A DNA stretch of 64,000 nucleotides from Sphaerochaeta associata. GTDB lineage: Bacteria; Spirochaetota; Spirochaetia; Sphaerochaetales; Sphaerochaetaceae. The stretch is taken from assembly GCF_022869165.1 (NCBI RefSeq), contig NZ_CP094929.1:1984001-2048000 (forward strand). The letters are read 5' to 3'. Both the position numbers and the translations under genes were made by a program. The notes under the pieces were generated by a model that did not search any database, was not told where the DNA came from, and was given only the letters and a program-made list of their open reading frames with translations. Positions 36,759-52,180 of the stretch are shown piece by piece; the stretch's first letter is position 1; every line of letters begins with the position of its first letter.

Positions 36759-38096
36759 ATGGTAATTCTGACCCTGAACTGCGGCAGCTCGTCTGCCAAG
36801 TACCAAGTCTACGACTGGGCAAACAAGGATATTCTTGCTGTAGGCGTCGTAGAGCGAATCGGACTGGAGTATTCCACTATTGAGCATAAAGCCAACGGAA
36901 AGGAAGAGTACCACGCTGAATTTTCCTCCCCCACCCACAAGGAAGCCATCGAGTTGATCATCCGCATGTTGCTCGATGACGAGTACGGCGTCATCCAGGA
37001 CCTGAAGGAGATTGGAGCCGTAGGTCACAGGGTGCTCCATGGTGGTGAGGTATTCAAACAGTCCGCACTGGTAACAGACGAGGTAATCGAGCAACTGAAG
37101 AAGGTCATCCCCCTCGGTCCGTTGCACATGCCTGCCAACATCATGGGTATTGAGGCGGCCCGCAAGGCCATGCCCAATGTTCCCCAGGCCATTGTCCTGG
37201 ATACAGCCTGGCACCAGACCATGCCCGATGAAGCCTTCATGTATGCAGTTCCCTACGAGTGGTACACAAAGTACAACGTACGCCGCTACGGATTCCATGG
37301 AACCAGCCATCTCTATTGTGCAAAGCGTGCAGCCGTAGTCTTGGGCAAGGAGAACAAGGATACCAACGTCATTATCTGCCATATCGGCAACGGAGCTTCC
37401 GTCTGTGCGGTGAAGAACGGCGTATGTGTGGACACCTCCATGGGACTGACGCCGCTTGAAGGCCTGGTGATGGGCTCGCGCAGCGGTGACATCGACCCGG
37501 CCATCATTCCTTATATGATGGAGAACACCGGAATGAGCGCCAAGGAGATGGATACCGCACTGAATAAGAAGAGCGGTTTGATCGGCTTGTGCGGCAAGAG
37601 CGACAGACGTGATGTATTGAAGGCCAGCCAGGAAGGAGACCTTCGTGCAAAGCTTGCCATCGACATGGAATGCCGCAGGCTGAAGAAGTACATCGGCGGC
37701 TACGCGACCCTGCTTGAAGGCAAGCTCGACGCCATCGTTTTCACCGCCGGTGTTGGAGAGATGGCCCGCCATATCCGCCTTGGCTCCTGCAAGGGACTCG
37801 AGGCCATCGGGGCAAAGCTCGATGAACACAAGAATGAGGTCTGTTTCAGCCGAAACGGTGAGTTTGTCATCAGCACCGATGATTCACCGGTAAAGATTCT
37901 GGTCATTCCCACCGATGAGGAGCTGGTCATGACCGAGGACGCTTATGCCTTGATGAATGGGACCTACGATGTGCACACCAACTTCCACTATACCTTCGAA
38001 GAGAAGGACTATGTGAACAAGGGCCGTGAACGGGACTTGGAGAAGAACATTGAGAAGAATCCCGAGTTGGCCACCATTTTGGCCATCCCGCGCTAA
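36759..38096 (+). CDS. ackA: Acetate kinase
   Basis: It makes ATP from acetyl phosphate. Motifs: LTLNCGSSSAKYQVYD (phosphate 1 loop), GHRVLHGGE, FHGTSH (RRYGFHGTSHLYCAKRA), HIGNGASVCAV, MGLTPLEGLVMGSRSGDIDP and FTAGVGE. At 445 aa it is somewhat longer than the usual ~400 through a C-terminal tail (FEEKDYVNKGRERDLEKNI). AGGAG precedes ATG. No pta gene is nearby. A single-gene unit with its own terminator. Confidence 0.97.
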   Translation: MVILTLNCGSSSAKYQVYDWANKDILAVGVVERIGLEYSTIEHKANGKEEYHAEFSSPTHKEAIELIIRMLLDDEYGVIQDLKEIGAVGHRVLHGGEVFKQSALVTDEVIEQLKKVIPLGPLHMPANIMGIEAARKAMPNVPQAIVLDTAWHQTMPDEAFMYAVPYEWYTKYNVRRYGFHGTSHLYCAKRAAVVLGKENKDTNVIICHIGNGASVCAVKNGVCVDTSMGLTPLEGLVMGSRSGDIDPAIIPYMMENTGMSAKEMDTALNKKSGLIGLCGKSDRRDVLKASQEGDLRAKLAIDMECRRLKKYIGGYATLLEGKLDAIVFTAGVGEMARHIRLGSCKGLEAIGAKLDEHKNEVCFSRNGEFVISTDDSPVKILVIPTDEELVMTEDAYALMNGTYDVHTNFHYTFEEKDYVNKGRERDLEKNIEKNPELATILAIPR

Positions 38097-38148: not shown

Positions 38149-38181
38149 TATGAATAATCTATGAAAATTGCATGTCAGTCT
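38149..38181. promoter_or_regulatory. Candidate Pho box at phoB: three 11-nt repeats
   Basis: TATGAATAATC, TATGAAAATTG and CATGTCAGTCT stand head to tail with exactly 11 nt period. On the minus strand they read CTGACATGCAA, TTTTCATAGAT, TATTCATATAT, close to the PhoB half-site CTGTCATAWAW. A possible -10 (TACTAC, 38202-38207) lies about 20 bp further on, 9 nt before the phoB ATG. The repeats point opposite to phoB transcription. Confidence 0.6.
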
Positions 38182-38216
38182 TGCCTTCCCGAAGCGTTGT
38201 GTACTACCGTTGCTGT

Positions 38217-38891
38217 ATGAACACAATCCTGGTAGTGGAAGACGACCTTGATATTCGAGAGCTTGAACGCTACACCCTTGAGAACAACGGCTACGCGGTG
38301 CTTCAGGCCGAACACGGAAAGCAGGCCTTGGAGGTTCTCTCCTCGGAGAGTGTTGATTTGATCATCCTCGATATGATGATGCCGGTCATGGACGGCTTGT
38401 CGTTGATCAAGACGCTTCGTTTCGTTATGAACGACACCACCCCCATCATCGTTGTATCGGCAAAAGGTGATGAGAGCGACATCATCACCGCGCTGGAACT
38501 TGGAGCCGATGACTATGTGACAAAACCCTTCAGCATGAATGTCCTGAACAGTAAAATAAGAGCGGTCCTCAGGCGTTCGGACCAGGTGCAAAGCCCCTCG
38601 GTCGTACACCATGCCGGTCTGGTCATGGACCAAAGCCGGCACTTGTGTCTGGTGGACAATGAGGAGGTCGAACTTACCGCCACTGAATTCTCATTGCTGT
38701 ACCTGCTGGCCGGCAACGCTGAGCAAGTCTTTACCCGCAACCAGATGATCACCCGGATCAAAGGCAGCGACTACCCGGTAACCGACCGATCCATCGACGT
38801 CCAGGTTGCAACCATACGAAGAAAACTGGGAGCCTACGGCAGCAGGATCAAGACCATATGGGGCATCGGGTATTCCTATAAGGAAAATTAA
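38217..38891 (+). CDS. phoB: OmpR/PhoB-family response regulator, probable PhoB
   Basis: A 224 aa regulator: receiver with LVVEDDLDIRELE, phospho-Asp in LIILDMMMPVMDG, Thr/Ser in PIIVVSAKGDE and Lys in DYVTKPFS; C-terminal winged helix (EVELTATEFSLLYLLAGN, RSIDVQVATIRRKLG). The only sensor kinase in the window is PhoR-like and lies 7 kb away beside pst; the 11-nt repeats at its own, the phoR and the pstS promoters support PhoB identity. ATG 38217 was chosen because the ATG at 38172 lies inside the repeat array. There is no clear RBS. Confidence 0.82.
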   Translation: MNTILVVEDDLDIRELERYTLENNGYAVLQAEHGKQALEVLSSESVDLIILDMMMPVMDGLSLIKTLRFVMNDTTPIIVVSAKGDESDIITALELGADDYVTKPFSMNVLNSKIRAVLRRSDQVQSPSVVHHAGLVMDQSRHLCLVDNEEVELTATEFSLLYLLAGNAEQVFTRNQMITRIKGSDYPVTDRSIDVQVATIRRKLGAYGSRIKTIWGIGYSYKEN

Positions 38892-38892
38892 T

Positions 38893-39531
38893 TCATTGCA
38901 GATTCTCAAGCTCTCGATACAGTTTTGCAAGAAAGCTGGAGTCTCCATCTGCAAACGGCGAAGATGCATGCTCCTTTTGGATTTCTGCCTTGATAACCGG
39001 GTCCTGACGGCTCTTCACCTCATTGCCCAATGCCTTGGCATAGGTTTTTCCATCCGTTTTTCCCGACAGCACATCCTGTATGATTGTCTGACTGGTTTCT
39101 ACCACCGAAAGCAGACCTGCAAGTTCTGCGTCCTGTAAAAGCATGAGTTGTTGTCGTTGCTTGTCGTTGATCGAATCGGATGGATGACGATTCCTGTACA
39201 ACAGCAGCGCTGCAAAACGTGCCATGCGCTCGCCCCGCTCTATTCCCGCATCAGCCCACACAGCATAGTGTTCGTCCTCATCCTTGACCACCAGTTGCGA
39301 TTCTTTCAGCAGTTTCATTGCCAGCACTGCAAGACTTGAGGAAGGCATGATCACATCCCTGCCACCGACCTTGCTGAAAAAATTCGCCTGCCCGAGGGGT
39401 GTGTCCACCCTTCCACGGTAATAGCGGGGGTCCATGCCCCGGCTGTCCAGGATGCACATCACATACCGAGTATCCACGATATCGACACCAACGGTCTCTC
39501 TTGGTTCTGTTTCCATGCCACAAGCATACAA
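38893..39531 (-). CDS. Hypothetical protein, RNase H/actin-like N-terminus suspected
   Basis: A 212 aa protein not recognised. The N-terminus TVGVDIVDTRYVMCILDSRG looks like the first two strands of an RNase H or ASKHA fold. The middle has KLLKESQLVVKDEDEHYAVWADAG, and the C-terminal third is helical and charged. No catalytic acidic set or zinc motif is apparent. It converges with phoB (1 bp apart) and lies back to back with yqeC. ATG 39516 is an alternative start; neither has a clear RBS. Confidence 0.5.
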   Translation of the reverse strand: MYACGMETEPRETVGVDIVDTRYVMCILDSRGMDPRYYRGRVDTPLGQANFFSKVGGRDVIMPSSSLAVLAMKLLKESQLVVKDEDEHYAVWADAGIERGERMARFAALLLYRNRHPSDSINDKQRQQLMLLQDAELAGLLSVVETSQTIIQDVLSGKTDGKTYAKALGNEVKSRQDPVIKAEIQKEHASSPFADGDSSFLAKLYRELENLQ

Positions 39532-43300: not shown

Positions 43301-44241
43301 ATTCCGATACTTACTTTTCCTTGTTGCTCCAAGCCCTGAAAAACGGGGATGTCAAGCGCAAAACATTGATCAGCGGTCCCCATGTGGGCAGTGAAGCACT
43401 CTACAGCGGCTTTCGATTGCTTGCCGGCGACTGCAGAGAAGAGAGCGGAGAAATCCTTGAGGAAATGCTGCAGACCGATGTTGAGCTGGTTGTCTGCGGT
43501 GGAGGTCATATCGCCTTGGAACTGGTGGCATTCGCCTCACGGCTGGGCTACAGGGTTACCGTCATCGATGAGAGGGAGCAGTACTGCAATCCAAAACGAT
43601 TTCCCTCGGCTACCTGCCTGTGCCTCCCTTTTGAACAAGCATTGGAGGCGGAACACGGTTGGATTCGACCCTACTTCGTCATAGCAACGCGCGGACACAG
43701 CTTCGACCAACTCTGTCTGGAGAAAATTCTATCTTTGAATCATCGCTATGTCGGGATGATCGGCAGCAAGGCGAAGGTGGCGACAACCCTTGGCAACCTC
43801 AAAGCGAGGGGTTTCTCCCAAGCACAGCTTGACAGCGTCCATACTCCGATAGGTCTTTCCATCAACGCAGTAACCGCCGGGGAAATCGCCGTCTCCATCC
43901 TCGCCCAAATCATTCAAACAGCACGTACGGGGGCTTCAGTAGTGCACTTGGATCGAAATCTGCTCGTACACCTGGCGAAAACCACACAAAAGTTCTGTCT
44001 GGTCCGCGTCATCGCAAAGCGAGGCTCGGCCCCGTGCGAAGTTGGCTTTCAGCTTGCGGTATTCGAGGACGGGACGGTGGAGGGCACCGTCGGAGGCGGA
44101 GCTGTTGAAGCGAAGGCGATCGAGGACGCTGAAACGATCAGCTCGAATACGGTAATCGAGTACGACCTGTCCAATTCGAAAGCCTCTGAGCTGGGCATGA
44201 TCTGCGGGGGATCCGTTCGCCTGCTCTTTCAGCTCTGGTGA
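43297..44241 (+). CDS. XdhC-family protein with swapped domain order
   Basis: A 314 aa protein with both XdhC parts in reverse order. Residues ~55-205 are the Rossmann part (ELVVCGGGHIALELVAFASR, YVGMIGSKAKVATTLGNL, TPIGLSINAVTAGEIAVSI). Residues ~225-314 are the CoxI-like part (FCLVRVIAKRGSAPCEVGFQ, GTVEGTVGGGAVEAKAIED, MICGGSVRLLFQLW). In standard XdhC the CoxI domain comes first. It is the last gene of the cluster and overlaps the convergent femX-like gene by 13 bp. Likely a second Moco chaperone. Confidence 0.82.
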   Translation: MNSDTYFSLLLQALKNGDVKRKTLISGPHVGSEALYSGFRLLAGDCREESGEILEEMLQTDVELVVCGGGHIALELVAFASRLGYRVTVIDEREQYCNPKRFPSATCLCLPFEQALEAEHGWIRPYFVIATRGHSFDQLCLEKILSLNHRYVGMIGSKAKVATTLGNLKARGFSQAQLDSVHTPIGLSINAVTAGEIAVSILAQIIQTARTGASVVHLDRNLLVHLAKTTQKFCLVRVIAKRGSAPCEVGFQLAVFEDGTVEGTVGGGAVEAKAIEDAETISSNTVIEYDLSNSKASELGMICGGSVRLLFQLW

Positions 44242-45302
44242 TATCCCTCGCCCACCATCTCATAGGCGAAGAGATTCTGGGCGTCCTCGGCGTTGTAGGC
44301 AAAATCCCAACAACCCATGCGATGCAGCAGACTCCCCCCGAAGCCTTTCTTGAAGGAGTAGAGTCCGCTCATCAGATGGTCACGGTCCTCTGACGGTGAT
44401 ACTCCGAACAAATCGTACTCGCTGCACTTCCAGCTCTTTGCCAGGGTGATGGCACCCCACTGCAGCGCATAGGTACTCATGGTGTTGCGCATCTGCGAAG
44501 AGGAGGCGCCGTAGAGATAGGTCGCCCGATTCTTTGAACGGCTGAGGAACATCGCACTGAGCGGCACTCCATCATGGAAGGCCATCAGCAGGACGACTCC
44601 TGCACTCTCATCGGTCGGCCCATACAAGGATTCGAAGAAGGAGCGGTCATGCAGATTGATGCGGTTGCGTTCACACGTCTCGCGGTACAAGTCGTAGAAG
44701 GTGTCGAGGTGATCGTGTCCGACTTGACGTACCTCAACCCCTTTTCGTAGGGCCAGGTTGATATTGTACCGAGTTTTATGGTGCATCCTTGCAAGAATTT
44801 CCTCTTCACGGGGCCTGAGGTCGATGAGCATGGTATCGCTTGGCAGCAGATTGGAGACAGACTTGTGCAGACTTCGCCGACTGGTTCCCCAGTTCAACCT
44901 GAGGTTCTGCAATGGCAAACTCAAGTCCTCATCCTCCCAGATGGTCCGCCAGGGAAGGTCATAGCGCAAAAGAATGCAATGACCGGGCAGCTTCTCCTGC
45001 AGATTCATCGACAACTCCTCCAAAAAGAGGCCCATCCGATCCTCTTGGGGACTGAGAACCGGACCATACGGCACATACCCGATGGTCTGCTCCCTGTTGA
45101 CCGGCACCAGCTGCACCAGGACATCGTCCAATACGTACGCTGAGGCGGGAGACCCTTGCAAGTCTTCCGAACGGACTTTTATATCAAAAGCCCTCGTTTC
45201 AAAACCCTGTTTTTGTTTTACTTGTGACCAAAAGGATGATTGATGCAAAAGCGGAGTATCATAGAGGTACGCAGGTTCTTTTTCCTGCACACTGACGTTC
45301 AT
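44229..45302 (-). CDS. FemAB/FemX-family aminoacyltransferase
   Basis: A 357 aa double-GNAT protein: TPLLHQSSFWSQVKQKQGF, IGYVPYGPVLSP, MLIDLRPREEEILARMHHKTRYNINLALRKGVEV (Fem signature), FYDLYRETCERN, LSAMFLSRSKNRATYLYGASS and YDLFGVSPSEDRDHLMSGLYSFKKGFGG. Fem proteins use aminoacyl-tRNA to add amino acids to the peptidoglycan stem, so it may set the cross-bridge here. A candidate Pho box lies about 60 nt upstream, in the orientation expected for this gene. Confidence 0.88.
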   Translation of the reverse strand: MNVSVQEKEPAYLYDTPLLHQSSFWSQVKQKQGFETRAFDIKVRSEDLQGSPASAYVLDDVLVQLVPVNREQTIGYVPYGPVLSPQEDRMGLFLEELSMNLQEKLPGHCILLRYDLPWRTIWEDEDLSLPLQNLRLNWGTSRRSLHKSVSNLLPSDTMLIDLRPREEEILARMHHKTRYNINLALRKGVEVRQVGHDHLDTFYDLYRETCERNRINLHDRSFFESLYGPTDESAGVVLLMAFHDGVPLSAMFLSRSKNRATYLYGASSSQMRNTMSTYALQWGAITLAKSWKCSEYDLFGVSPSEDRDHLMSGLYSFKKGFGGSLLHRMGCWDFAYNAEDAQNLFAYEMVGEGYHQS

Positions 45303-45361: not shown

Positions 45362-45394
45362 TGTGTGTAGGATATGAGAAAACTGTGAATTACG
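45362..45394. promoter_or_regulatory. Candidate Pho box between femX-like and phoR genes
   Basis: TGTGTGTAGGA, TATGAGAAAAC and TGTGAATTACG at exactly 11 nt period. Reversed they read CGTAATTCACA, GTTTTCTCATA, TCCTACACACA. The array ends 10 bp before the phoR -35 box and also faces the femX-like gene. Confidence 0.55.
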
Positions 45395-45404
45395 GCTTTG
45401 CTTC

Positions 45405-45434
45405 TTGTTTACCCCTGTACATCCTTGCTACAGT
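45405..45434 (+). promoter_or_regulatory. Predicted phoR promoter
   Basis: TTGTTT, 18 nt spacer, TACAGT, giving a leader of about 35 nt with AGGGAG before the ATG. Confidence 0.45.
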
Positions 45435-45475
45435 ATTTTCATGCAGTATCCTTACGTTGCCAGGGAGTTGGTACC

Positions 45476-47305
45476 ATGAAATTCTCAAGCATCCGTTCTA
45501 ATTTGCTTGTCTCTTCCCTTCTCATCCTCACCTTAAGCCTCGCCCTCAGCTACAGTCTCTCCAACCGTGCTTTCAGTGCAGCCCTTCATGAATCCACCTA
45601 TGCAGAGCTGGAGGAAAATGCCGAATATCTATCCAATTTGACAGCACAATACACAAAACCATGGTTAGAAGGCCACTTCGATGCATATGCGCAGTCCACG
45701 GCAACCAGAATCACCTTGATCGCAAAGGACGGACATGTACTATTCGATTCGGAGTACGAAATCGCAGAGCTGGACAACCACCTCTGGAGAAAGGAAGTGC
45801 AACAGGCGCTGACGGCGGGAAGTGCATACAGTGAGCGTTCGAGCACCACCGAAAATCTTCCAGTCCTCTATTATGCACGTTCAATACAAGACCATCCCTC
45901 CATCGCCGTTCTGAGGGTTTCCAAAACACTGAACCAGCTTGGCGGATATAGAAAAACGTATCAGCGTATGTTTTTAGGGAATCTGGCGGTTCTTGTTTTA
46001 CTTCTGCTCTGCATAACCACCATATCGATCATGCTGCTGACCAAACCACTGAAGAAAATTCAAGCCCTGGCCAAGCAGTACGCCCAAGGCAGTTTGAACG
46101 AACGTCTTTCGATCCAACGCCCAAGGGAGATGGCCGACCTGGCTTCATCACTGCAGCACATGGCCTCCTTGCTTCAGACCAATCGTGAACGCCTTGAAAC
46201 CTCTCACAACCGTCTTCAAACCATTATGGACAACCTGCACGAGGGAATACTCCTGCTCGACCCAACCCTCACTATTGAAGTGGCGAACATGGAGGCGGCC
46301 AAGCTCCTTGGAGGCGACCCGACGGGGTACAGGCTTGGTGAAGTGGTGGCATCCTCGGCGGTGCTTGCAGCCTGCAACGCGTGCAAGGACGAGGGAACCA
46401 CCACCTCGCTGACCGTCTCCCAGTTCAAGCATCTCTATGGGGAAAGTGCCGTCCTGGTTGGCAGACGCAAAGCAAAAACACTCAGATTCCTCTGTACGCC
46501 GCTTTCAACCGCCCGTACTACAACCAGATCGTTGGTGGTTTCAATCCAGGATATGACTGAACTGACACGGCTGGAGCAGATACGCAAGGATTTTGTGGCG
46601 AATGTCTCCCATGAACTGAAAACACCCATCACCTCGATAACCGGTTTCTCCGAAGCCCTGCTGCAGGCAAAGACGGATCAGGAGTACCAACGCTTCGCCC
46701 AGGTAATCCACAGGCAGGCAGGCAATATGAAACGCATCGTCGACGACCTGCTGCTGCTCTCCAGCCTCGAACAGGCCAATGCCCATCCCACTATGGCTTG
46801 GACCAGAATAGAACAAATCATCGAAGAGACGGTACAGAGCTGCAACTACCGGTTCGAAGAGAAGCATAGCACCCTTTCAACACAGATTGACAACCCCTTG
46901 GGCTATGAGCTTTTGTGCAGCGGCATGCTCCTTACCCAGGCATTGACGAACCTCGTCATCAATGCGTTGACGTACTCACCCGAGCACTCCCATGTCCTGC
47001 TCGCCTGCCAAGTGGATGATATGTCAGCCACCTTCTCCGTCAAGGATGAAGGCATCGGGATTCCTCTTGAAGACCAAGAGCGTATTTTTGAGCGTTTTTA
47101 CCGTGTGGATACTGCCAGAAGCCGTAGCCAGGGAGGCACCGGTCTTGGTCTTTCCATCGTCAAGCACATCACCGCTTTACACCATGGCAACATCGAGGTT
47201 CACAGTGAAACGGGAAAAGGCAGCCTCTTCATCATGAGGCTGCCCCGCAGCGGCTCCGAGCTCCCCCGGTTGGAGGAGCGCAGCGAATCGTTGTATCGCA
47301 AATAG
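45476..47305 (+). CDS. phoR: Membrane histidine kinase, probable PhoR
   Basis: A 609 aa sensor kinase: membrane helix near 12-32, periplasmic sensor (~33-165), second helix (LAVLVLLLLCITTISIMLL), HAMP (LTKPLKKIQALAKQY), PAS-like segment (LQTIMDNLHEGILLLD), His box NVSHELKTPITSITGFSE, N box LVINALTYSP, DEGIGIP, FERFYRVD and GGTGLGLSIV. HAMP-PAS-HK layout and convergence with pst-phoU support PhoR. ATG 45476 has AGGGAG. Its regulator phoB lies 7 kb away, an unusual split. Confidence 0.85.
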   Translation: MKFSSIRSNLLVSSLLILTLSLALSYSLSNRAFSAALHESTYAELEENAEYLSNLTAQYTKPWLEGHFDAYAQSTATRITLIAKDGHVLFDSEYEIAELDNHLWRKEVQQALTAGSAYSERSSTTENLPVLYYARSIQDHPSIAVLRVSKTLNQLGGYRKTYQRMFLGNLAVLVLLLLCITTISIMLLTKPLKKIQALAKQYAQGSLNERLSIQRPREMADLASSLQHMASLLQTNRERLETSHNRLQTIMDNLHEGILLLDPTLTIEVANMEAAKLLGGDPTGYRLGEVVASSAVLAACNACKDEGTTTSLTVSQFKHLYGESAVLVGRRKAKTLRFLCTPLSTARTTTRSLVVSIQDMTELTRLEQIRKDFVANVSHELKTPITSITGFSEALLQAKTDQEYQRFAQVIHRQAGNMKRIVDDLLLLSSLEQANAHPTMAWTRIEQIIEETVQSCNYRFEEKHSTLSTQIDNPLGYELLCSGMLLTQALTNLVINALTYSPEHSHVLLACQVDDMSATFSVKDEGIGIPLEDQERIFERFYRVDTARSRSQGGTGLGLSIVKHITALHHGNIEVHSETGKGSLFIMRLPRSGSELPRLEERSESLYRK

Positions 47306-47309
47306 CCCG

Positions 47310-48008
47310 TCAGACTCGAGGAATGGCTGGATTCTGCAACTTCGGTCCGTTGAGCTTGGGCCGTTGGCCTTTCTCCATATACACTATCCAACGGCAGATG
47401 GTCGTCACATGATCGCCTAGGCGCTCCATCTCCTTGGTCAGGTAGTGGAGGTTGAGAATGCGTTCCATCTCCTGCTCTGTTTCCGGCTTCAATGCATACA
47501 GGTCGCGATTCAACTCATCGCGCAATCGATCCATCTGGTCGTCCATCGCAGCAACCTCAATGGCTTTCTCCGCCTTGACGTCGATGAAGGCTTCCACTGC
47601 ACGACGGGTCATTGTTGCTCCCAGCAGGGCCATTTCGCTGATCCGTTGGACAAACGGGGCGAATCTGGGAAAATCTTCTCCACGTGTCATTTTTGCCATG
47701 TGTGCGGCATGGTCTCCCATTCGCTCCAGACTGGACACAATCTTCATACCGGCGATGATATGGCGCATGTAATGCCCGTAGGGAGCCTCGCTGATAAGCA
47801 GGCGCACCCCGTCGTTTTCCACCATCTCCTGCAGCTGGTCGATGAACCAGTCGTTGGCGATGACCTTCTTGGCCAACTCCTCGTCATGGTTGCTGAATGC
47901 CGCATGAGCCAAAAGGATCGACTCCTCAACCCTATTGACCATCTGAATCAACAGCTCCTGGAAAAACCGCATTTTCTCATCAAGCATGCTGGTATGTTTC
48001 TCATCCAT
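47310..48008 (-). CDS. phoU: Phosphate transport regulator PhoU
   Basis: A 232 aa protein with two three-helix PhoU repeats, each carrying the metal-site motif: SLERMGDHAAHMAK and EMERLGDHVTTICRWIVYMEKG. PhoU links the Pst transporter to PhoR and shuts off the Pho response when phosphate is ample. ATG 48008 has AGGAGG ahead. It is the last gene of pstSCAB-phoU and ends 4 bp from the convergent phoR stop. Confidence 0.95.
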   Translation of the reverse strand: MDEKHTSMLDEKMRFFQELLIQMVNRVEESILLAHAAFSNHDEELAKKVIANDWFIDQLQEMVENDGVRLLISEAPYGHYMRHIIAGMKIVSSLERMGDHAAHMAKMTRGEDFPRFAPFVQRISEMALLGATMTRRAVEAFIDVKAEKAIEVAAMDDQMDRLRDELNRDLYALKPETEQEMERILNLHYLTKEMERLGDHVTTICRWIVYMEKGQRPKLNGPKLQNPAIPRV

Positions 48009-48024
48009 TTCAAACCTCCTACGA

Positions 48025-48855
48025 TCAACCGAATTTACCCGATATATACTCTTCCGTCTTTTTGTGCACCGGATTGAGGAACAGCTGCTCGGTCTGTTCA
48101 TACTCCTCTAGATACCCTGTCCTGTTCGCATCCACCATGAAGAAAGCGGTGTAGTCGGAGACCCGGCTGGCTTGCCCCATGTTATGGGTGACGATGACAA
48201 TCGTATAGGCTTGCTTCAACTCCAGGATGAGTTCCTCAATCCTGGAAGTGGCGATCGGGTCCAATGCCGAAGCCGGTTCATCCATCAGTATCACCTGTGG
48301 TTGCACTGCAATGGTCCGCGCAATGCAGAGCCGCTGCTGCTGACCTCCGCTCAGGCGCAGGGCATTCTGCTTGAGCTTGTCCTTCACCTCATCCCATAAG
48401 GCTGCAGAACGAAGACTGGTCTCCACCAGCTCATCGTAATCTCCCTTGTACCCATTCACCCGAGCCCCCCAGGCGATGTTCTCATAGATGGATTTGGGGA
48501 AAGGGTTTGGTTTTTGGAACACCATGCCGATGCGTCGCCTGATCAGTACAGGGTCAACATCCTTGCTGTACAGGTCCTCGTTATTGAAGAGCACCTTTCC
48601 TTCAAGGGTTGCACCGCGGATGAGATCGTTCATACGATTGATGCTCCTGAGCACCGTACTCTTGCCGCATCCCGAAGGCCCTATGAAGGCTGTAACCTTA
48701 TGTTCGTAGATATCCATGCTCGCATCCTTCACTGCATGGAAGGTTCCGTAACGGATGTTGACATCCTGCAACCGTATGATTGTTCTGGCAGGTTCCGCGA
48801 TGCTCTGCGTGGGGAATGCCGTCAGCAGGTTCTCTGCCAAGTTGGTAGTATTCAT
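48025..48855 (-). CDS. pstB: Phosphate ABC transporter ATPase PstB
   Basis: A 276 aa ATP-binding subunit: [23 protein letters not shown] (Walker A; spaced over 23 residues in the family), [18 protein letters not shown] (Q loop, PstB-specific), [16 protein letters not shown] signature, [16 protein letters not shown] Walker B and [13 protein letters not shown]. It powers phosphate import with PstC and PstA. ATG 48855 overlaps the pstA stop by 4 bp. Confidence 0.97.
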
Positions 48856-50120
48856 GCTTCCATCCTTTTCTTTTTGGATAGTCTGTCTCGTATGATTATT
48901 GCGCTGCTGTTGAGAATCATCAGCAGGATCATGAGGGCGATGATTGCAGCGCCCGCCACATTGCGATACGCCCCTTGTGGTCGGGCCGACCATTGGTAGA
49001 TCTGTATTGGCAGGGTCGTAAATTTTGAGAAAATGCCCGATGGATCGACACTGATGAAGGTCGAGGCACCGATTACCACTAAGGGAGCGGTCTCTCCAAG
49101 CGCCCTGGAGAGTGCAAGAATCGTCCCGGTGAGAATCCTGTCGATGGACACCGGCAATACCTGGCCCCAGGTGGTCTGCCACTTGGTCGCCCCGATGCCG
49201 TAGCTGGACATTCGCAGCGAGTCGGGTACCGCCTTGAGGGCTTCCTGAGTGTTTATGATGATGATGGGAAGCACCAAAAGTCCCAACGTCAAGCCGCCGC
49301 TGAGGATGGTTCTTCCATTGGCGGTCGTATCGACGGTTGTTGAAAACACCGAACCGCTGGTCAGCCCTTCCATGGCCCGCACAAAGACCGCCAAACCCAG
49401 AAGACCGTAAATGATCGAGGGTACGGCACTGAGATTGAAGATATTGAGTTGCAACAGCCTGGAGAGCCTGTTGGGCTTGGCGTACTCCTGCAGGTAGATT
49501 GCCGAACCCACTCCGATTGGAAAGGCAAACAGGAAGGTGATGAGTATAATCCACAGCGAGCCCAACAGTGCAGTTCGAATACCTGCATAGAGCGGGTTCG
49601 CACTCTGATCGGCGAACAAAAAGTCGAATGTGAGCCAATTCTTGAACGTTAAAACGGCCTGATCCTGCTCCTGCAGGTACATCTCTATTTCGTCTTGGTT
49701 CGTCAAGGACTCCCAAAGGCCCCAGGTCCTGAGCACACTAGGCTTGACAACATACTGCTCGAGAAGTGCAGTGAGATCCTTATCACTACGATCGGCGATG
49801 GGCTTTTCATACTCCACCCTTCTGAGGATTCCGCTTGAAAGCCGACTTCTTGCTGTCTCCTCCAACTGAAGGCGGGAAAACTCTGAAAGATGCTGCCTGC
49901 CCTCCACAAGCGATGAAGGTTCAACCTCGTATGCAAGGGCGGCATATCCGAAGGTTGAATCGATGATTGAAAACAACAAGAGAACCAGGAAGAGGATTGC
50001 CAGGGAGGTGGCCAGCAAAAACACCGCCTGCCAAATCAATGAAACCTTCCTTCGTTTCTCCATCAAGGAGAGGACGTTCTCTTCACTGCCGAATGCCAGG
50101 GAACTTTGCATATTATTCAT
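48852..50120 (-). CDS. pstA: Phosphate ABC permease PstA with long N-terminal insertion
   Basis: A 422 aa permease; the usual length is ~290. One helix near 29-52 is followed by ~120 mostly hydrophilic residues ([20 protein letters not shown] ... [16 protein letters not shown]) before the second helix. The core has [58 protein letters not shown] and [15 protein letters not shown] (EAA-type loop). The insertion should sit outside the inner membrane. It overlaps pstC by 8 bp and pstB by 4 bp. Confidence 0.93.
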
Positions 50121-51027
50121 ACTCCTGATGAAAGATGGTGGAAACCTTTCTCGATACCAGATTCAAGGTGAAGGTGATGAGAAAGAGCACCAATCCAAGC
50201 GCAAAAATACTGTTGTAATCAACAGAATTGTAACTTACATCCCCTCCGCTGATTCGCACGATGTAGCCGGTGATAGTCTCGGCGGCCTTGAAGGGATTGG
50301 CTGTCAGCTTCGGCCCGGCACCGGCAGCAAGAGCCACTACCATCGTCTCTCCGATGGCACGTGAAAGAGCCAGCAAAAAGGTTGCAGAGAGCCCGCTGAG
50401 CGCCGCCGGGATGACCACCTTGAAGGTGGTTTCTATCTTTGTACCACCCAGGGCGTAGGCCGCCAGGCGAAGCTCCTTGGGCACCGAGCTGATTGCATCC
50501 TCGGCCATGGTGGCGATCATGGGAAGGACAAGAATGCCGATGACCAGGCCAGCCGACGCTGTATTGTAGATTTCCACCCGGCTTTGGCCGAACAGCGACC
50601 GTAAAAGGGGTGTCATGAAGGTCAGGGCGAAGTAGCCGTATACAATGGTCGGGATGCCTGCGAGAACTTCCAGGGTAGGCTTGAGGATTCCACGCATGCG
50701 GTCGTTTGCATATTCGGCCAGATAAATAGCGACAAACAAGCCGACGGGAATGCCGAGCAGCATTGCGATGATGCTGGTGGTGAACGTTGCGTTGAGCAAA
50801 GGGAGAAAGCCGAATTGATCGATCATCGGCTGCCAATCCCTGCCGGTCAAAAATCCGACCAGGTTGACCTTCGGGTCGGAAAAGAACAGAAAGGATTCCC
50901 TGGTTAAAATTACAACGATGCCCACGGTGATGAGCATGGAAAACAGGGCGAAGAGAAACATGACCGATTCAATGATCCGTTCATGCAATCGATGTTTCTT
51001 TCCAAATTGAGGAGTATCTATCAGCAT
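50113..51027 (-). CDS. pstC: Phosphate ABC permease PstC
   Basis: A 304 aa permease with six helices: LFALFSMLITVGIVVILTRE, GIPVGLFVAIYLAEYANDRM, LEVLAGIPTIVYGYFALTF, LPMIATMAEDAISSVPKELR and SRAIGETMVVALAAGAGP, the EAA-type coupling loop. It pairs with PstA. It follows pstS by 70 bp with a hairpin between them. Confidence 0.95.
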   Translation of the reverse strand: MLIDTPQFGKKHRLHERIIESVMFLFALFSMLITVGIVVILTRESFLFFSDPKVNLVGFLTGRDWQPMIDQFGFLPLLNATFTTSIIAMLLGIPVGLFVAIYLAEYANDRMRGILKPTLEVLAGIPTIVYGYFALTFMTPLLRSLFGQSRVEIYNTASAGLVIGILVLPMIATMAEDAISSVPKELRLAAYALGGTKIETTFKVVIPAALSGLSATFLLALSRAIGETMVVALAAGAGPKLTANPFKAAETITGYIVRISGGDVSYNSVDYNSIFALGLVLFLITFTLNLVSRKVSTIFHQEYE

Positions 51028-51048
51028 AGGTGCAACATCCTTTTAAAG

Positions 51049-51076
51049 AAGGCCGCAGGCCGCTTGAGGCGGCCTT
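51049..51076 (-). terminator. Intercistronic hairpin between pstS and pstC
   Basis: AAGGCCGC ... GCGGCCTT (or the inner AGGCCGC/GCGGCCT with a 5 nt loop) followed by CTTCTTT on the minus strand. Like the dctP-dctQ stem it probably lets the binding protein exceed the permeases. Confidence 0.65.
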
Positions 51077-51097
51077 GGACCTAGTGGGAATAATCGC

Positions 51098-52099
51098 TCA
51101 GTACGTACCGTTCATCGCCTTAAGCCATGCCTGGCGGCCTTTCTCAAGTTCGTCTTCGTTGGCGGGGAAGTACCCCACCCCGATGACCTCTTCATTCACA
51201 TAACTGAGGTAGAAGTCGATGAAAGCGGCAACCTGGGGTTTGGTTCTCATGATCTGCTCGTCACTGTAGATGTACAGCGGCCTTGCCAAGGGGTAGGTTC
51301 CGTTGTCCACGTTGGCCTTGCTTGCTTCCACTCCATTGATGGAGAGGATGGTAAGGCTGTCTGCATTCTCAGCGTAGTAGGCATATCCGAAGAATCCGAC
51401 TGCATAGGGAGATCCCTTGATGCCCTGGACCAGAATGTTGTCATCCTCGCTGAGCTGCAGATTCTGCGCTGAAAGCATCGGCTGGGGATTGTTCTTGAAA
51501 ACTTCTTCGCTGAAGTAGTCGAACGTACCACTGTCGGTGCCGGGGATGAAACGCTGGATTTTCTCTTTCGGCCAGGCGGGATTGATTTCAGACCAAGTGG
51601 AAGCCGTGCTGAACAGCTTTGCAAGCTCGTCCTTGGTCAGATTCTTTGCAAACGTATTTTGGTTGCTCACGACCACTGCAAGAGCATCGGTGCCAACGCG
51701 GAACTCGATGGGATTACGGCCTATTTGCTTGGCCGCCTCGATTTCCTTGGCCTTTATGGCACGGCTGGCATTGGCTATATCGGTCTCTCCTGCAACAGTG
51801 AACCGTTCAAAACCTGCACCGCTGCCGATCGAGTCGATGGTGATTACTCCACTGTATCCTTCCTGCTTGAAACGCTCGGCCATCCGTTCCGACAACGGAT
51901 ATACGGTGGAACTTCCGGCGGTGATGATATTTCCGCTGACCTTCAGCGGGTTGACACCAGGCAGACCTGCGACGCCCCCGTCCTCAACCCATGAGAAAGT
52001 GTTTTTCTGCACCGGCTCAGGTTCTTTTGCTCCTCCTGCAAAAACAGGAAGCGTCATCATAACAAACGATGCGAGTATTGCTGCAAGTAATTTCTTCAT
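51098..52099 (-). CDS. pstS: Phosphate-binding protein PstS
   Basis: A 333 aa periplasmic binding protein with a signal peptide (LLAAILASFVMMTLPVFAGG). ITAGSSTVYPLSERMAERF is the phosphate-binding Ser/Thr loop, IDSIGSGAGFERF and ANASRAIKAKE follow, and FIPGTDSGTFDYF provides the second binding site. ATG 52099 with TGGAGGAAAC ahead was chosen; the longer frame would cover the promoter and Pho box. Confidence 0.95.
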   Translation of the reverse strand: MKKLLAAILASFVMMTLPVFAGGAKEPEPVQKNTFSWVEDGGVAGLPGVNPLKVSGNIITAGSSTVYPLSERMAERFKQEGYSGVITIDSIGSGAGFERFTVAGETDIANASRAIKAKEIEAAKQIGRNPIEFRVGTDALAVVVSNQNTFAKNLTKDELAKLFSTASTWSEINPAWPKEKIQRFIPGTDSGTFDYFSEEVFKNNPQPMLSAQNLQLSEDDNILVQGIKGSPYAVGFFGYAYYAENADSLTILSINGVEASKANVDNGTYPLARPLYIYSDEQIMRTKPQVAAFIDFYLSYVNEEVIGVGYFPANEDELEKGRQAWLKAMNGTY

Positions 52100-52147
52100 T
52101 GTTTCCTCCATATTAGGAACTGTGATGGCTACAGCGTAGGGACCAAA

Positions 52148-52180
52148 TATGAGAAAAGTATGCAAAGGGTATGAAGAAAG
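52148..52180. promoter_or_regulatory. Candidate Pho box at pstS: three 11-nt repeats
   Basis: On the minus (coding) strand CTTTCTTCATA, CCCTTTGCATA and CTTTTCTCATA: three CATA cores at exactly 11 nt period, about 50 nt before the pstS ATG and in the orientation known for PhoB half-sites. Confidence 0.7.

Follow-up and report, generated by a model that had tools for sequence, protein, structure and literature searches.

Upstream of three phosphate genes of Sphaerochaeta associata, phoB, phoR and pstS, short TATG-like words recur every 11 nt. This raises the question of whether the arrays are binding sites for PhoB and, if so, what it means that they run against the direction of transcription at phoB. 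The window, that is, the whole 64-kb stretch of DNA analyzed, corresponds to bases 1984001-2048000 of a single 3.55-Mb contig, and its relevant features are the following (positions within the window):

36759-38096, plus strand: ackA, 5' of phoB and co-directional with it
38149, 38160, 38171: TATG, TATG and CATG, 5' of phoB (letters checked)
38149..38170, minus strand: predicted reversed two-repeat PhoB box of phoB; the plus strand reads TATGAATAATC TATGAAAATTG; the genome's third-best box, conserved in the genus
38181..38210, plus strand: predicted phoB core promoter, with -35 TTGCCT (38181-38186), an 18-nt spacer and -10 TACCGT (38205-38210)
38217..38891, plus strand: phoB, a response regulator with an OmpR/PhoB-type DNA-binding domain; its ATG lies 6 nt past the -10
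44229-45302, minus strand: FemAB-like gene, divergent from phoR
45362, 45373, 45384: TGTG, TATG and TGTG, 5' of phoR (reverse complements CACA, CATA and CACA)
45373..45394, minus strand: predicted reversed two-repeat PhoB box of phoR; the plus strand reads TATGAGAAAAC TGTGAATTACG; the genome's second-best box
45405..45434, plus strand: predicted phoR core promoter, with -35 TTGTTT (45405-45410), an 18-nt spacer and -10 TACAGT (45429-45434)
45476..47305, plus strand: phoR, a PhoR/PnpS-like sensor kinase
47310-52099, minus strand: phoU-pstB-pstA-pstC-pstS
51098..52099, minus strand: pstS, first gene of pstSCAB-phoU
52133..52138, minus strand: predicted pstS -10, TACGCT, 9 nt past the last TCATA; without a -35, the box standing in its place
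52145..52177, minus strand: predicted forward three-repeat PhoB array of pstS; the gene strand reads TCATA, GCATA and TCATA; the genome's best box
52148, 52159, 52170: TATG at each position, 5' of pstS (letters checked)
52244, plus strand: desulfoferrodoxin

A direct check bore out the letters that the sequence-only reading had given for phoB and the positions that it had given for all three promoters. At phoR, the words are not all TATG, two of the three being TGTG, of the same class. The third phoB repeat, CATG at 38171, had to be given up: the register containing it scores 9.2 bits and is missing from most relatives, and the repeats conserved at orthologous phoB promoters are those at 38149 and 38160 only. 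The weak third repeat of phoR (TGTG at 45362) shows only partial conservation. The ATG within CATG (38172) was considered as the PhoB start and rejected, the start codon being at 38217. Convergent with phoB lies a 212-aa open reading frame (38893-39531, minus strand) with no Pfam or NCBIfam match.

Simple pattern counts leave room for the idea that the three arrays are chance resemblances of AT-rich triplets. The loose [TC][AG]TG triplet occurs four times in the window and is, by itself, little proof, while TCATA-N6-TCATA-N6-TCATA, with at most three mismatches, has 85 matches in the genome versus 89 for a reversed-pattern control. As the loose triplet is no commoner than its control genome-wide, orthologous promoters were used for testing. 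With a matrix built from the orthologous promoters of other genomes, this genome being left out, the three window sites score 28.4, 28.0 and 23.9 bits and the next window site 12.8 bits; over 300 simulated 64-kb windows, the matrix maximum was 22.3 bits and the mean 11.2 bits. A two-repeat box profile, trained on other species only, was then scanned over the whole 3.55-Mb genome, a search of the kind that the sequence-only reading had proposed. Its top three sites are those of pstS (20.1 bits), phoR (18.7 bits) and phoB (16.2 bits), the next reaches 13.1 bits, and no equally good site was found elsewhere. None of the seven weaker genome sites lies beside a recognisable phosphate gene, in a search that pre-filters candidates and may miss a few weak sites. 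A profile of the whole reversed-box promoter returned phoR (E 8.5e-10) and phoB (E 4e-9) from the whole genome, followed by a match at E 0.06. Chance resemblance, already refuted by the cross-species scan, is further opposed by conservation and by the genome ranking with an independent profile, and its probability is negligible.

Some other matches were examined and discarded. A CstA-like gene lies about 280 nt downstream of four TCATA-like repeats with one mismatch (889937-889974 of G000:C1, outside the window), which are probably due to chance and score only 12.0 bits in the box profile. When the reversed-box promoter profile was run on 248 genomes of the class, nothing credible appeared outside the genus; the two weak matches beyond it both lie within unrelated genes of a single genome. 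Apparent reversed boxes of Enterococcus pnpR were matches to the ATGAAAAAA gene start and, therefore, chance.

The arrays are conserved at orthologous promoters, the comparison by which the sequence-only reading had proposed that they be judged. Searches of 26 congeneric genomes recovered PhoB from 15, PstS from 17 and PhoR from 18. Four apparent absences of phoB were discounted: G020 carries a frameshifted copy, the copy of G023 is cut by a contig end, and G024 and G025 both end before the syntenic position. The conserved unit consists of two 11-nt repeats (box-strand consensus TTTTCAYACTTTTCTCAYA), present as two repeats at phoB and phoR and as three at pstS. At 28 phoB and phoR promoters of the genus, the box is reversed, with a gap of 15 nt between TATGAA and TTGYYT and with 37-38 nt between the end of the box and the -10; this latter distance grows to 48 nt, one helical turn more, in the divergent congener G021 and in three genomes of a second genus, g16. 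The phoB core-promoter spacing is kept in all orthologues. Column conservation is 0.85 in the box and 0.84 in the -35, versus 0.52 in the gap and 0.54 in the spacer. Genus g13 keeps weaker versions of the box, and G003, which has no close PstS orthologue, carries a degenerate one (16.1 bits). The arrays thus have what is required of Pho boxes in sequence: two or more direct repeats of 11 nt that share a conserved 7-nt core, a position 5' of genes of the Pho regulon, and conservation among orthologues. The presence, conservation, orientation, fixed spacing and genome-wide uniqueness of these boxes are directly observed, and the three arrays are real, conserved boxes of the PhoB type, that is, predicted binding sites.

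The repeats of phoB do run against transcription, as had been pointed out from the sequence, and this is not confined to phoB. The box is reversed at phoR too; pstS alone has a forward one. Wherever an orthologue has a clear box, that of phoB or phoR is reversed and lies upstream of an intact -35, so that neither gene has the class-II layout known from E. coli, in which a forward box replaces the -35. The pstS promoter does have it (TCATA-9-TACGCT), its last repeat being as far from the -10 as in phoA of E. coli K-12 (TCACG-9-TATAGT).

One way of accounting for the reversal is that the boxes serve transcripts of the opposite strand, namely the FemAB-like gene (45302, minus strand) at phoR and an antisense RNA at phoB. 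The phoR box indeed faces this divergent gene, 36 nt from TATGGT, a possible -10. Upstream of phoB, however, ackA is co-directional and there is no divergent gene, and in genomes where phoB and phoR are adjacent (G016, G007, G021 and g16), the single upstream box is also reversed; the orientation, therefore, belongs to the phoB and phoR promoters. Spacing is likewise fixed relative to these promoters, whereas the box lies 34 to 36 nt from the FemAB TATGGT, depending on the genome. Service of the opposite strand is, thus, quite improbable, though the phoR box may be shared by both genes. Independently of this, TATGGT in the likely FemAB promoter is conserved in several relatives, within the intergenic region that also holds the phoR box, and the FemAB-like gene could therefore share phosphate control.

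The boxes resemble those of E. coli (phoA, pstS, phoB) in having at least two 11-nt direct repeats, a TCAYA core and a PhoB-PhoR-Pst neighbourhood, with a consensus of TTCAYA instead of TGTCATA. The box of E. coli phoB is forward and activating, whereas the phoB and phoR boxes described here are reversed and upstream of an intact -35. A closer parallel is offered by PhoP of Salmonella, a member of the OmpR/PhoB family, whose reversed boxes activate at 27, 37 and 48 nt from the -10, while direct boxes act at 12, 23 and 33 nt, with little activity in between because orientation decides the DNA face on which the protein sits (PMC3335776). As in architecture V of this series, a reversed direct-repeat box lies upstream of the -35, 37 or 48 nt from the -10; the corresponding distance here is 37-38 nt, rising to 48 nt for G021 and g16, a match that depends on the half-site alignment of the two proteins and is uncertain by 1-2 nt. 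The Salmonella regulator governs a different regulon (Mg2+), and in its natural promoters of this class a further box is present that often represses. The promoters described here belong to the regulator genes themselves and have a single box.

Autorepression is the chief rival to activation from these boxes. It supposes that phosphorylated PhoB (PhoB~P), bound to the reversed phoB and phoR boxes, keeps its own synthesis in check and that activation is left to the forward pstS box. E. coli provides a precedent, as a second PhoB site in its phoB promoter, reversed on the antisense strand, represses the promoter (PMC6194859). That site, however, overlaps the -10 and stands beside a forward activating box, whereas the box here is the sole one, reversed, and ends 37-48 nt upstream with the -35 left free. 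Moreover, the distances match the series in which reversed Salmonella PhoP boxes activate, and the core promoters are weak (-10 TACCGT and TACAGT), as expected of activated ones. Autorepression is, therefore, unlikely, though it is a more serious contender than the other alternatives.

At the tag genes of B. subtilis, PhoP sites occur in the opposite orientation, although the literature searched contained no report of them. Nor did it contain a report of reversed Pho boxes, or of Pho boxes in spirochaetes (few subscription papers were covered), or a precedent for a reversed box as the sole site at phoB itself. Gram-positive PhoP boxes (B. subtilis, Streptomyces) also consist of 11-nt repeats at phosphate genes (PMC4415409), with a Streptomyces consensus, GTTCACC, that differs from the boxes described here. 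A precedent for reversed boxes exists in the sister regulator PhoP of Salmonella, and the present ones are solidly conserved and mechanistically suggestive.

The protein most likely to bind them is encoded at 38217. No other protein of the genome matches E. coli PhoB as well (4e-44, the next being 3e-37); the two are 38% identical, and its gene lies near pstSCAB-phoU-phoR, both the rank and the location being as expected of a PhoB orthologue. It falls short, however, of the curated PhoB cut-offs (208.7 of 270 bits for NF053854 and 195.5 of 296.2 for TIGR02154). Its recognition helix departs at several positions from the one in E. coli PhoB and hardly differs from those of the phoR-adjacent PhoB proteins in G016 and g16. 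Another OmpR/PhoB-type regulator might occupy the boxes instead, given that 39 candidate response regulators are encoded in the genome and that the trees of the 38217 regulator and of the 45476 kinase, its putative partner, conflict. Against this, the boxes are found at Pho-circuit genes only, and the 38217 protein is the best match not only to E. coli PhoB but also to the phoR-adjacent PhoB of G016, which makes a different regulator very improbable indeed.

As to the conflict between the trees, the PhoB sequences fall into two deep clades (100/100), one for each type. The regulator of this clade sides with its counterpart in G003, where PhoB of the same type lies near ackA and is followed by a different kinase (about 36% identity). 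In the kinase tree, by contrast, this clade is placed with G016 and G007, of the phoBR-operon type, and apart from g16 (95/97). No better PhoB of the other type was found elsewhere in this genome. PhoB and PhoR of this clade are possibly a re-paired two-component system; on the simplest reading of the sequences, the ackA-linked regulator would now work with the pst-linked kinase, following loss of the phoB of the old operon. Accelerated divergence is an alternative to re-pairing, and the trees have some long branches.

Control of all three promoters by PhoB, as first proposed from the arrays, is supported by the sequence comparisons. In the preferred reading, to which a probability of about 0.7 is given, the phosphorylated 38217-38891 regulator binds all the arrays, acting as a class-II activator at pstS and through class-I positive feedback at phoB and phoR; these classes we infer by analogy with the systems above. 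At pstS, dimers of PhoB~P on the three forward repeats would stand in for the -35 and, as is known from E. coli, bring in RNA polymerase by way of sigma. The phoB and phoR promoters have one reversed two-repeat box, whose end lies 38 nt from the -10, with the intact -35 downstream of it; there, PhoB~P would most likely act as a class-I activator via the C-terminal domain of the alpha subunit, so that phosphate starvation would set up positive feedback on both regulator genes. Binding by the 38217 PhoB, activation rather than repression, and contact with polymerase are all predicted features of this scheme. With this layout, PhoB would seem to activate its own genes through a contact with RNA polymerase other than that used in E. 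coli.

The transcripts of the two regulator genes have features of their own. In every clear orthologue, g16 included, exactly 6 nt separate the end of the phoB -10 from the ATG, and the phoB mRNA is therefore predicted to be leaderless. Near gene starts in the window, TANNNT is enriched at offsets of 6 or 7 nt from an in-frame ATG (10 cases among 82 ATGs, other offsets averaging about one each), and leaderless transcripts, which have been reported for Leptospira (PMC5243855), may be common in this genome. A 12-codon open reading frame (45441-45479; MQYPYVARELVP) stands at the start of the predicted phoR transcript, and its stop overlaps the phoR ATG (ATGA). G001 and G011 keep it with altered residues, and translational coupling of this reading frame with phoR is possible.

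For the family as a whole, the odds are about even that Pho feedback in the Sphaerochaetaceae operates wholly through reversed class-I boxes and the transporter through forward class-II ones, with orientation separating autoregulation from output, and that in this clade the loop links two partners of differing descent, regulator and kinase, each with its own copy of the reversed-box promoter. A spirochaete family gains a defined Pho-box consensus and a very small regulon of strong boxes. It also offers a natural, cross-species case of one OmpR/PhoB-family regulator with forward and reversed sites at different promoters, and with a box spacing that shifts by one turn of DNA, like the Salmonella PhoP constructs. 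The role of orientation in splitting autoregulation from output, thereby, becomes directly testable.
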